Below are positions 1 to 33,808 of a stretch of DNA of 33,808 nt, one piece after another; the stretch's first letter is position 1, and the number at the start of each line of letters is the position of its first letter. The translations under genes and the position numbers were made by a program. The stretch lies in the IMG/VR virus record IMGVR_UViG_3300044639_000874, positions 1 to 33,808 of that record; one strand, given 5' to 3'. Source of the DNA: a virus. Below the pieces are notes generated by a model. The model had not been told where the DNA came from, ran no database searches, and saw only the letters and a program-made list of their open reading frames with translations.

Positions 1-32
1 AATTAAAAGAAATACAAAAACTATTAAAATGA
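1..32 (+). CDS. 3' end of NinG-like gene (partial)
   Basis: The first 32 bases encode the last ten residues or so (ending KEIQKLLK, stop at 30-32) of the NinG-like protein whose full copy lies at 32105-32695. The stop overlaps the start of the next gene as ATGA, exactly as in the right-hand copy. The gene is cut by the window edge. Confidence 0.85.
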   Translation, partial: LKEIQKLLK

Positions 33-286
33 AAAACGCACCCGAAAAACCATATACACTAAAAGAAGTTTCTGCAATTCACAATATACCTATTGACACG
101 TTAAAATATCGATGTGTAAGGCGTAAACTTCGACCAAGCGTAATAAACGGTAAGTATATGTATAATTTAAGCTATAATGAAATGATTTCAATATTAAATA
201 ATGATAGTAAAGTTTATTTAATACCAGAAATAATATACGTTCATACAACTTGGTTAATATTAGAAAGTAAAATAAATAGGAAATAA
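29..286 (+). CDS. Small helix-turn-helix DNA-binding protein, copy A
   Basis: An 85-residue protein. Residues about 9-30 (YTLKEVSAIHNIPIDTLKYR) read as a helix-turn-helix of the MerR/excisionase-like type, followed by a basic stretch (RRKLRPS) and a short wing-like segment. The rest has no recognisable domain. It starts inside the NinG stop codon (ATGA) and ends just before a promoter and structured leader RNA, so it could regulate that promoter; this is inference. The right-hand copy (32692-32949) differs by one amino acid (I82M) and nine silent changes, which shows purifying selection and argues that this is a real gene. Confidence 0.8.
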   Translation: MKNAPEKPYTLKEVSAIHNIPIDTLKYRCVRRKLRPSVINGKYMYNLSYNEMISILNNDSKVYLIPEIIYVHTTWLILESKINRK

Positions 287-299
287 ACAAAATATTTTG

Positions 300-307
300 T
301 ATATTTG
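300..307 (+). promoter_or_regulatory. Bacteroidota -7 promoter box (TATATTTG)
   Basis: TATATTTG matches the TAnnTTTG -7 consensus of Bacteroidota. No clear TTTG -33 box is seen 19 nt upstream. The first stem of the leader RNA starts 5 nt after the box, so the transcript would begin at about 312. The equivalent box at 32986-32993 has the same 5-nt spacing to its leader. Confidence 0.65.
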
Positions 308-312
308 TTGCA

Positions 313-405
313 GTAGAACTTCCACCTACGTTAAAGATTATAGGTTTATAGAACCTTACAACCCTTAACTAATCGGAGTGGAAGCCGAGAAGTTGAGGGT
401 TTTTT
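313..405 (+). ncRNA. Structured leader RNA with kissing-loop/terminator architecture, copy A
   Basis: Hairpin 1 has stem gtag 313-316 / ctac 326-329 with loop 317-325 containing cttccac. A middle hairpin is aggtt 342-346 / aacct 352-356. The terminator stem pairs 360-370 with 391-401 (11 bp, one wobble) and runs into T400-T405. Inside its loop, hairpin 2 has stem tcgg 373-376 / ccga 385-388 and loop 377-384 containing gtggaag, fully complementary to cttccac of loop 1 (7 bp). The variant at 32999-33096 has the same plan with different sequence. I infer an attenuator in which loop-loop pairing affects termination before the gene at 433. No known riboswitch class is recognised. Confidence 0.7.
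360..405 (+). terminator. Intrinsic terminator at the end of leader A
   Basis: An 11-bp stem (aacccttaact / agttgagggtt) is followed by a run of T. It lies 28 nt before the start codon of the next gene, so it would act as an attenuator rather than an operon end. The stem encloses the hairpin that pairs with loop 1 of the leader. Confidence 0.7.
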
Positions 406-432: not shown

Positions 433-636
433 ATGACACACACATTAACTATTGAAGAACACGGAACGAAAGAACTTTCTGTTGTTGAATTACAAAACAA
501 AAAATGTATTATTAATGTATCAAGCATAAATAATAATTCTTTTGAGCAAGTAGAAATTGATTTACAACAATTACATTCTTTTATTGGAACATTGCTTCAC
601 GTTCAACAAAAAATGAAAGGAGGACAAAATGGCTAA
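433..636 (+). CDS. Small protein upstream of replication gene, variant A
   Basis: A 67-residue protein with no recognised domain. It is the first gene after the leader terminator and overlaps the next start by 8 nt (AATGGCTAA, ending NG-stop). The protein at the same place in the other variant (33136-33363, 75 aa) has the same position and overlap and a similar C-terminal helix followed by a basic/polar tail, but little sequence identity. The pair looks like functional analogues exchanged together with the leader RNA. Function unknown. Confidence 0.75.
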   Translation: MTHTLTIEEHGTKELSVVELQNKKCIINVSSINNNSFEQVEIDLQQLHSFIGTLLHVQQKMKGGQNG

Positions 637-1288
637 AGATAAAAAAGCAATAATAGTTTATTCTGATTGGATAGATTTATTTGTAGCATTAACGGATGAA
701 GAAGCAGGAAAATTAATTAAGCACTTTTTTAAATATGTTAATGATGAAAATCCAGTTGCTTCCGATAGAATTATAGAACTTTCTTTTATTCAAATAAAAA
801 ACGCTTTAAAAAGAGATTTAAATAAATGGGAGCAAACATTAGAAACACGTTCTCACAATGGTAAAATTGGCAACTTAAAACGTTATCATATTGATTTATA
901 CAATAATGTTGAAGCTAAAACTATGACTTTAGAAGAAGCTGAAATTATCGCTAAATCTCGCAAAACATCGCAACCCGATAGTGTAGCGATAAACAATGTC
1001 GCAAAACTCGCTGTAAGTGTTAATGTTAATGATAGTGTTAATGTAATAGTTAAAGAAAGTATAGAAGAACGCAAATTAAAATTTGCTAACTCACTCAAAC
1101 CTTTTTTATTAATATATCATAAAGACCTTTTAAATGACTTTTATGGTTATTGGACACAACACGGAGAAAATGACAGAAAGTTTTTAGCAGAAAAGCAAAA
1201 GTCTTTTGGAATAGAAAGAAGATTGGAAACTTGGAAACGAAATGAAAAAACATTTAATAAACAACCTTTAAAAGCAGAAAGATTATGA
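629..1288 (+). CDS. DUF6291-domain replication-type protein, variant A
   Basis: A 219-residue protein. Residues 1-70 resemble the DUF6291 domain (a DYW-like SDWIDLF, LTDEEAGKLIKHFFKYVNDENP, then a basic KRDLNKWE segment), found in flavobacterial phage and element replication genes. A low-complexity linker follows (VNVNDSVNV, about 130-140). The C-terminal domain of about 75 aa (LKFANSLKPF...YWTQHGEN...RRLETWKRN) resembles C-terminal parts of DnaD-like or phage initiator proteins. The linker is where the two genome variants become identical (base 1058), so the N-terminal domain is exchangeable and the C-terminal one is conserved. Role in replication initiation is inferred from family and neighbours. 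Confidence 0.7.
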   Translation: MAKDKKAIIVYSDWIDLFVALTDEEAGKLIKHFFKYVNDENPVASDRIIELSFIQIKNALKRDLNKWEQTLETRSHNGKIGNLKRYHIDLYNNVEAKTMTLEEAEIIAKSRKTSQPDSVAINNVAKLAVSVNVNDSVNVIVKESIEERKLKFANSLKPFLLIYHKDLLNDFYGYWTQHGENDRKFLAEKQKSFGIERRLETWKRNEKTFNKQPLKAERL

Positions 1289-32108: not shown

Positions 32109-32695
32109 TTAAAGAGAAACCCTGCAAAGGAACTTCAAAAGCAATCGGTTACGGTTGTGGTAAATTAACCAAAGTTGAAAATCGTATTTATGGACTTGGT
32201 AAAATGTGTGGTTGTTATTGCGATTGGCTTTTAAATTCTGAAAATGGTAAAATAAAAATGGCTAAATCGATTTTAAAGATACAGAAACCACGATTAGACT
32301 TTGAACAAAAGCAAGTAGAGAAAACAGAATTAACTCGCTTAAAACTAATGTTAAACAGCACCAAAACAAAAGTACACGCTCACGTTAGAAATAGAGATAT
32401 AGGTTTGAATTGTATTTCGTGCAATACACCTTATTCAGATGATTTTCAAGCCGGTCATTTTTATCCTGCCGGTAGTTTTGAAACTCTAAAATTTAACTTG
32501 GATAACATAAACGGTCAATGCGTACAATGTAATTTATTTAAAGATGGAAACTTTGAAAATTACTCTTTAAATTTACCTAAACGGATTGGTTTAGAACGTT
32601 ATCAAAATTTAGTACAATTAGCAGAAATCGACAAACAGTTTCAAAAAGTTTGGACTGTTGAAAAATTAAAAGAAATACAAAAACTATTAAAATGA
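32105..32695 (+). CDS. NinG-like recombination protein (HNH-like zinc fold)
   Basis: A 196-residue protein. An N-terminal Cys-rich segment (C7...C18, CGCYCDW), then a basic helical part, CISC (126-129), AGHFYP and INGQCVQCNLFK: the NinG family (lambda Rap) pattern of an HNH-type zinc fold that cleaves Holliday junction or branched DNA. Coupled to the methyltransferase and to the HTH gene by ATGA. Confidence 0.88.
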   Translation: MIKEKPCKGTSKAIGYGCGKLTKVENRIYGLGKMCGCYCDWLLNSENGKIKMAKSILKIQKPRLDFEQKQVEKTELTRLKLMLNSTKTKVHAHVRNRDIGLNCISCNTPYSDDFQAGHFYPAGSFETLKFNLDNINGQCVQCNLFKDGNFENYSLNLPKRIGLERYQNLVQLAEIDKQFQKVWTVEKLKEIQKLLK

Positions 32696-32949
32696 AAAAC
32701 GCACCCGAAAAACCATATACACTAAAAGAAGTTTCTGCAATTCACAATATACCTATTGACACGTTAAAATATCGATGTGTAAGGCGCAAACTTCGCCCAA
32801 GCGTTATAAATGGCAAGTATATGTATAATTTAAGCTATAATGAAATGATTTCAATATTAAATAATGATAGCAAAGTTTATTTAATACCCGAAATAATATA
32901 CGTTCACACAACTTGGTTAATATTAGAAAGTAAAATGAATAGAAAATAA
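32692..32949 (+). CDS. Small helix-turn-helix DNA-binding protein, copy B
   Basis: Same protein as at 29-286 with one substitution (I82M). The helix-turn-helix at residues 9-30 is identical. It lies before a second promoter and leader RNA, again the place expected for a local regulator. Confidence 0.8.
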   Translation: MKNAPEKPYTLKEVSAIHNIPIDTLKYRCVRRKLRPSVINGKYMYNLSYNEMISILNNDSKVYLIPEIIYVHTTWLILESKMNRK

Positions 32950-32963
32950 ACATAAAAAAAGTA

Positions 32964-32993
32964 TTGTAATTTAATATTAATTGTTTATTTTTG
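32964..32993 (+). promoter_or_regulatory. Promoter of variant B leader (TTG, N19, TATTTTTG)
   Basis: TTG 32964-32966, 19-nt spacer, TATTTTTG 32986-32993, matching the Bacteroidota consensus. Leader hairpin 1 begins 5 nt after the box, as in variant A. Confidence 0.7.
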
Positions 32994-32998
32994 CTTTT

Positions 32999-33096
32999 GT
33001 AATGAAGTGGAACGCATTACATAACGACACGACATTATTAAAAGTCCTATCGATGAAGCACGTTCCACTATACTGCTGATTTGATGGGATTTTTTA
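32999..33096 (+). ncRNA. Structured leader RNA with kissing-loop/terminator architecture, copy B
   Basis: Hairpin 1: stem gtaatg 32999-33004 / cattac 33015-33020, loop aagtggaacg 33005-33014. Terminator stem: 33041-33051 with 33083-33093 (11 bp, two wobbles) into T run. Within it, hairpin 2: agca 33057-33060 / tgct 33074-33077, loop starting cgttccact 33061-33069, a perfect 9-bp complement of agtggaacg 33006-33014 in loop 1. Same order and spacing as 313-405 but nearly no shared primary sequence, so the pairing is kept by compensatory change. Confidence 0.7.
33041..33096 (+). terminator. Intrinsic terminator at the end of leader B
   Basis: aaagtcctatc region pairs with gatgggattt and runs into T. 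It lies 40 nt before the start codon at 33136, so it attenuates rather than ends the operon. Confidence 0.6.
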
Positions 33097-33135
33097 ATTT
33101 TAAATTTTGTTTGTTTTTATAAACATTCATTCATT

Positions 33136-33363
33136 ATGGCAAATACAAAATTAATTTTTTGCGGTTCACACGAAAGTGAAACACAAGACCACGAATTAAC
33201 TTGCTTTTCAAATACTCATAACAATATTTACATAAGTATTGATGCTGGAAATGATTATAATAATTCTTTTATTTGTTTAGATAGAAGTACAGCTATAAAA
33301 TTACATCGAGAATTAAAAAAGCAAATTTCATTTTTAAAAGAAAGTGAGGTTTTAAATGGCTAA
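33136..33363 (+). CDS. Small protein upstream of replication gene, variant B
   Basis: A 75-residue protein (MANTKLIFCGSHESETQDHE, SFICLDRSTAIKLHRELKKQ). The C-terminal LDRSTAIKLHRELKKQISFL helix is a pattern seen in small flavobacterial phage proteins. It overlaps the next start by 8 nt and ends NG-stop, just like its counterpart at 433-636. Confidence 0.7.
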   Translation: MANTKLIFCGSHESETQDHELTCFSNTHNNIYISIDAGNDYNNSFICLDRSTAIKLHRELKKQISFLKESEVLNG

Positions 33364-33808
33364 AGATAAAAAATCATTTGTACTTTATTCAGATAGTCAA
33401 GGATTAATTAATCAACTTCCTGATGATGTAGCTGGTAGATTATTAAAACACATTTACGCTTATGTAAATGATGAAAATCCAATTACTGATGAACTTTTAA
33501 TTAATATTGCTTTTGAACCAATTAAAATGCAATTTAAAAGAGATTTAGTTAAATGGGAAAATACTAAAGAGGCTCGAAGTGTTGCAGGAAAAGCAAGTGT
33601 TGAAGCTAGAAAATTATTAAAAGAAAATCAACAAACTTTAACAAATTTAACAAATGTTAATTTAGTTCAACAAACTTTAACAAATTTAACTGTAAATGAT
33701 AATGTAAATGTAAATGTAATAAATAAAGATAGTATAGAAGAACGCAAATTAAAATTTGCTAACTCACTCAAACCTTTTTTATTAATATATCATAAAGACC
33801 TTTTAAAT
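33356..33808 (+). CDS. DUF6291-domain replication-type protein, variant B (cut by window end)
   Basis: 151 codons are visible and the frame is open at the edge. MAKDKKSFVLYSDSQGLINQ, LPDDVAGRLLKHIYAYVNDE and KRDLVKWE are the DUF6291 pattern. The linker holds a 24-bp perfect direct repeat (33628-33651 and 33667-33690, QQTLTNLT twice) and VNDNVNVNV, then the C-terminal domain becomes identical in DNA to variant A. The rest of the gene would read as at 1136-1288. Confidence 0.75.
   Translation, partial: MAKDKKSFVLYSDSQGLINQLPDDVAGRLLKHIYAYVNDENPITDELLINIAFEPIKMQFKRDLVKWENTKEARSVAGKASVEARKLLKENQQTLTNLTNVNLVQQTLTNLTVNDNVNVNVINKDSIEERKLKFANSLKPFLLIYHKDLLN

Follow-up and report, generated by a model that had tools for sequence, protein, structure and literature searches.

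In this study, we describe leader RNAs in which the loop of a first hairpin is complementary to a loop inside the downstream terminator. The two leaders analyzed here lie in the window, which is the complete IMG/VR virus record IMGVR_UViG_3300044639_000874 (33,808 bases), with a phage gene set that includes terminase, NinG, and DUF6291. On the sequence evidence, which establishes the promoter box, the stems, the terminator, the complementarity of the loops, its covariation, the spacing, and the gene context, these leaders belong to a widespread class in phages of Flavobacterium-type bacteria. We estimate a probability of roughly 60% that the leader acts as a transcription attenuator, with a loop-loop kiss inside one RNA gating its terminator.

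Two probable leader alleles at the ends of the record

The features of the window are as follows.

1-292 (+): near-duplicate end, 5′ copy, 96% identical to 32664-32955
300-307 (+): TAnnTTTG box, a Bacteroidota-type promoter, of allele 1, TATATTTG
313-329 (+): hairpin 1 of allele 1, stem GTAG/CTAC, loop AACTTCCAC
330-359 (+): spacer of allele 1, in which an extra hairpin at about 342-356 leaves about 15 nt unpaired
360-405 (+): intrinsic terminator of allele 1, ending in a U-tract
433-636 (+): small ORF of 67 aa (phrog_7002), separating leader 1 from the replication-module gene
629-1288 (+): gene of a DUF6291 protein (PF19808), downstream of leader 1
32664-32955 (+): near-duplicate end, 3′ copy, 96% identical to 1-292
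32986-32993 (+): promoter box of allele 2, TATTTTTG
32998-33021 (+): hairpin 1 of allele 2, with its kissing strand AGTGGAACG at 33006-33014
33022-33039 (+): spacer of allele 2, without structure, including CGACATTATT
33040-33096 (+): intrinsic terminator of allele 2, inner stem GCA/TGC
33136-33363 (+): small ORF of 75 aa, 3′ of leader 2

A preliminary description of this DNA had claimed a promoter box, hairpin 1, a spacer, a terminator, and a loop match of 7 and 9 bp, and this anatomy is present in both leaders. In allele 1, the kissing strand of hairpin 1 (L1) is CTTCCAC (319-325). The terminator has the outer stem AACCCTTAACT/AGTTGAGGGTT, the inner stem TCGG/CCGA, and the loop AGTGGAAG, and its kissing strand (L2), GTGGAAG (378-384), forms 7 bp with CTTCCAC. 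In allele 2, L2 is CGTTCCACT (33061-33069) and forms 9 bp with AGTGGAACG. The motif TATTTTG at 293-299 is recorded as overlapping the promoter box of allele 1. Both leaders fold better than their dinucleotide shuffles (z = -3.5 for leader 1 and -4.9 for leader 2). A promoter box, a U-tract terminator, and the gene context expected of an attenuator leader are present; in such a leader, an alternative structure would affect termination.

The two leaders had been described as separate, which is not supported: they look allelic, with 1-292 and 32664-32955 being 96% identical, and with flanks this similar we rejected a reading as two loci in one genome. Since the terminal bases at the 3′ end of the window are also similar to 1041-1134, we consider leaders 1 and 2 to be most likely two alleles of one locus, lying where the ends of a circular or permuted genome overlap. 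The ends of the record probably join two strains from one circular phage population. The sequence enclosed by the duplicated flanks is replaced from the leader through the small ORF into the first part of the DUF6291 gene, as if the leader and the initiator N-terminus were swapped like a single cassette. Outside the leader, the stretch that differs between the alleles (408-1040 versus 33097-33723) comprises the N-terminal half of DUF6291 as well as the small ORF. In allele 2, DUF6291 starts after the 75-aa ORF and the gene runs off the contig.

Distribution, covariation, and spacing of the leaders

Relatives were collected with a scanner that has three requirements: a box of the TAnnTTTG type, an initial hairpin, and, further downstream, a terminator with an interior complementary to the loop of that hairpin. 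Upstream of DUF6291 genes, this design was found in 52% of 102 loci versus 0.3% of shuffles. On the reverse strand of the same loci the rate was 7.8%, and some of these matches are expected, since complementary loops allow an RNA to be matched in reverse as well. A scan of whole contigs (1.60 Mb, both strands) gave 22 matches, one of them the reverse reading of an already counted leader, versus none in shuffled sequence, and the design is therefore not due to chance. Loci from two further replication-gene queries added 19 unique matches, again versus none in shuffled sequence. The class was defined by a TAnnTTTG-type box, hairpin 1, complementarity of at least 6 nt between L1 and L2, and a spacing of about 46 nt. 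In total, 69 unique leaders of this kind with 61 distinct L1 strings were found, and the shuffled controls were near zero. A looser scan for complementary loops without the promoter box returned mostly AT-rich noise, and for this reason the box, stem, and terminator filters were added. The scanner matches on the minus strand of locus L097 and in L113 were dropped as noise of the same kind, and L018 and L021 were excluded from the set for their spacing of 81-86 nt.

Cultured carriers of the leader include Flavobacterium phage 11b, tooticki6-1 and its relatives, elemoA, elemoB, and elemoD, Olleya phage Harreka_1, and Cellulophaga phage phi13:2. The close relative L001, whose upstream gene is 99% identical, has a third, unrelated leader (GCACTAC/GTAGTGC) that precedes a different replication gene. 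The leader of L002 resembles allele 2 and has the loops GTGGAACACG/CGTGTTCCAC. A covariance model (R1), in which all 14 base pairs lie within the terminator, recovered a new leader with a 10-bp kiss in a bacterial assembly (L169), together with a weak match that has no kiss (L170). In this search, which spanned 397 genomes from the family of F. fluvii, the one true leader lay on a 3.5-kb contig; the count is a lower bound because the model spans mainly one subfamily and the filters were strict. The single occurrence suggests that the class is phage-borne. No relatives of DUF6291 were present among the plasmid records searched, and homologs of the 85-aa gene upstream were absent from the phage records searched.

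The preliminary description held that the pairing is maintained by covariation, which is supported here. In a control selection of 50 unique leaders made on the promoter box, hairpin, and terminator alone, with pairing ignored, the cognate hairpin-1 loop and terminator interior were complementary over at least 6 nt in 84% of cases, compared to 10.3% after loops were swapped between phages; for at least 7 nt, the values were 70% and 4%. Among 16 related leaders that were aligned, 86% of the pairings at the nine kissing positions are standard; 27 changes affect both sides, and none affects one side only. Covariation by itself would look alike for strands of one RNA and for strands of two copies. 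The covariation score of this alignment was matched by none of 500 shuffles, and sliding the partner strand by 1-3 columns lowered the pairing to 21-44%. Compensatory changes are also seen in the subfamily of L002 and leader 2: a second alignment, of five leaders with leader 2 of the window among them, shows the four helices together to be 96% paired and nine pairs to have changed on both sides.

Hairpin 1 keeps its pairing through 62 distinct stem sequences in the 69 leaders, and in 61 of the 69 the L2 loop is closed by an inner stem of its own, with 46 different sequences. Compared with shuffled flanks, the evidence for the stems in a single leader is modest (≤0.05 in 46% of leaders for hairpin 1 and in 20% for the inner stem); what carries the case is the agreement across leaders. 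The distance between L1 and L2 has a median of 46 nt (10th-90th percentile, 41-52), and it clusters at this value across 28 sequence clusters, though the component parts vary. A permutation analysis of spacing compensation gave 0/5000, a value that is partly confounded because adjoining parts share assigned boundaries, and we therefore place weight on the narrow total spacing instead.

Constant spacing and strict inverted symmetry, with no one-sided changes, would also be found in a DNA inverted repeat, in which a repressor would bind L1 and L2 as the two half-sites of its operator, spaced by about 54 bp or close to five helical turns, with sequence changes that track the phage repressor. However, each half-site is enclosed as a loop by a separate covarying stem, which an operator does not predict, and neither the U-tract nor the recurrent internal-loop motifs would follow from it. 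We consider this reading very unlikely.

The spacers are rich in A and U, frequently resemble AAAGAnnTTATT, and mostly measure 12-22 nt. In four long spacers (leader 1, L001, L097, and L027), a clear extra hairpin reduces the length to 12-16 nt. The AAAGAnnTTATT-like motif is kept in most of the otherwise diverged leaders, e.g., at 33022-33039 of the window, and it could serve protein binding or placement in a helix groove. Internal loops recur at the junction of the inner and outer stems, AGUA/GAA in 15 leaders and UGA/GGAU in 15. In our reading, the former pattern resembles a loop-E (sarcin-ricin)-like motif, while the latter could form tandem G-A pairs.

Proposed attenuation and its alternatives

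Most leaders precede replication-module genes, and some precede homing endonucleases. Homologs of DUF6291 are annotated as "replication protein" and adjoin primase genes in tooticki6-1 and elemo phages; the other replication-module genes downstream of leaders encode DUF1376, O-like, and MAKELPYF-type proteins. As proposed earlier, the leader is placed ahead of the replication module, and gating of termination by the kiss is plausible. A small downstream protein had also been suggested as a possible signal, but a necessary role for it is not supported, as many leaders directly abut the replication gene with no small ORF. The homing endonucleases are of the NUMOD4-HNH type, with one GIY-YIG-like by eye (L244). 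Their leaders are located at L127:11597, L135:8441 and 19814 (minus strand), L034:2704, L227:58, L200:824, and L244:307, and in several of them the U-tract is only about 10 nt 5′ of the start codon. A further locus, L069, has a second leader (1587-1690) before a 134-aa protein without known family and a PAPS-reductase/DUF3440 protein.

The unit from promoter to terminator is complete in about 90 nt, and complementary loops could link molecules, as loops of phi29 pRNA do; both features would suit a stand-alone phage sRNA, perhaps dimeric or multimeric, with a job of its own and an incidental downstream gene. We regard this as improbable: the leader recurs directly before replication-module or homing-endonuclease genes, with the U-tract often just 10-26 nt from the start codon, and the differing loops within one phage do not fit a single structural RNA.

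The leader's own promoter, its U-tract terminator, and its position before replication-module genes point to an attenuator, for which we propose the following pathway. Transcription from the Bacteroidota-type promoter would yield a leader of about 90 nt, in which hairpin 1 would fold first and expose the L1 loop strand of 6-10 nt. About 46 nt later, L2 would emerge as the apical loop of the inner hairpin within the intrinsic terminator and pair with L1 in the same nascent RNA, with the A/U-rich spacer bridging the two; the near-constant spacing of L1 and L2 suggests this pairing within one RNA. The closed fold would comprise hairpin 1, the kissing helix, the inner stem, a non-canonical internal loop, and the outer terminator stem. 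The median distance from the end of L2 to the U-tract is 17 nt. RNA polymerase covers about this length of RNA, so L2 would be freed as the polymerase reaches the U-tract. The kiss would form at that moment and set the read-through into the replication or endonuclease gene. A closed terminator and the kiss are compatible in a drawn structure, so either polarity may hold; we prefer a model in which the kiss in cis would delay closure of the terminator and allow read-through, and its loss would restore termination. More speculatively, a terminated leader could capture L1 of other nascent copies, giving a loop-type-specific and copy-dependent feedback.

The most interesting alternative, which may coexist with the cis attenuator, is self-specific control in trans, i.e., immunity or incompatibility. 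The terminated leader of about 90 nt would pair via its loops with a nascent leader made by a second genome of that loop type and so silence its replication gene, much as P4 CI RNA or plasmid antisense attenuators act, and the loop sequence would be a specificity tag under diversifying selection. The elemo phages of one host are informative here: their 63 records carry two leader alleles (4 versus 59). In two representatives of the elemoA phages, which come from one host and one mesocosm, the surroundings of the leader are mostly 92-100% identical while the leader region is about 70% identical. The loops have changed together (GTGAGATG/CATCTCAC versus TGAGAGC/GCTCTCA), and the spacer is identical. 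This replacement is the strongest hint of a role in specificity, though recombination and drift may also explain it; if the pairing occurs solely within one RNA, the loops would have been replaced by drift or recombination without selection for a new specificity, which counts against the cis reading. Control in trans is also consistent with the two alleles in the population of the window, with the 61 distinct L1 strings among 69 leaders, and with the six phages that carry leaders at two kinds of genes, whose loops differ and have at most 4 nt in common.

On the other hand, the near-constant spacing of L1 and L2 fits pairing within one RNA better, and the two homing-endonuclease leaders of one phage carry the same loop. 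A separate trans RNA or antisense gene was not identified. Mumin-type phages have been described as exclusively lytic (PMC7077304), and lysogenic immunity is unavailable to them. Together with the absence of a tyrosine-integrase match within the 33,808-base window, this marks down classical lysogenic immunity. Overall, we regard control in trans as possible but doubtful. For virulent phages, a related and equally tentative idea is self/non-self recognition by RNA, in which the leader would switch the replication or homing-endonuclease gene, its loop pair would be a private code, and the terminated leader RNA would silence co-infecting genomes with the same code. If true, this would cause phages that are identical elsewhere to exchange their loop pairs rapidly.

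Relation to known RNAs and implications

The window gave no match in Rfam 15 at the gathering cut-off. At E-values up to 5, four leader loci gave only a tRNA, a match overlapping that tRNA, and a weak match elsewhere. A comparison with Rfam, and with Flavo-1 (RF01705) in particular, had been suggested at the outset; in the cmscan run the leaders matched neither Flavo-1, which is also a structured RNA of Bacteroidetes, nor any other family. On the strand opposite the tRNA-Met gene of an elemo phage (L120:1366-1440), Plastid-ycf2 gives a sub-threshold match that probably reflects spurious cross-matching. No description of kissing leaders or structured RNAs of Bacteroidetes phages was found in the literature searched, whose scope excluded subscription papers and preprints. 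As far as can be told, the leader architecture is new, while regulation by a terminator and loop-loop pairing is of an already known kind.

The CI RNA of phage P4 is derived from a leader and acts by premature termination, with complementary leader segments upstream of the replication functions. Our leaders likewise precede replication functions of phages, contain complementary segments in one leader, and would have termination as their output. Unlike in P4, these segments are two short hairpin loops at a fixed spacing, of which the second belongs to an intrinsic terminator, and the leaders occur in phages described as virulent. The C4 antisense RNA (RF01695) is a phage RNA in which self-complementary segments control a phage gene, but the leaders have no Rfam match at the gathering score or at E-values up to 5. 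In the antisense attenuators of pT181 and pIP501, terminator formation and loop-loop specificity control a replication gene. Here, in contrast, both partner loops are in the same RNA and an antisense transcript was not identified; by eye, no opposite-strand promoter stands out after leader 1. The pRNA of phi29 has two loops that are complementary within one phage RNA and co-vary between phages. While that RNA is part of the packaging motor and its loops make contacts between molecules, the present RNA is a terminated leader before replication genes.

The class is probably missing from Rfam because nothing but the loop-to-loop rule is conserved in a sequence this variable. This suggests that covariance models without pseudoknots miss RNAs that are defined by loop-loop pairing. 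Orthogonal antisense attenuators have been built (PMC3753616), and the natural loop pairs, if orthogonal, would provide a ready set of matched attenuators. The leaders pose a testable question, i.e., whether the kiss in the nascent transcript sets termination and whether its sequence is a specificity code between competing phages. Loops that are perfectly matched and yet differ in sequence from virus to virus may point to a new kind of self-specific on/off control.
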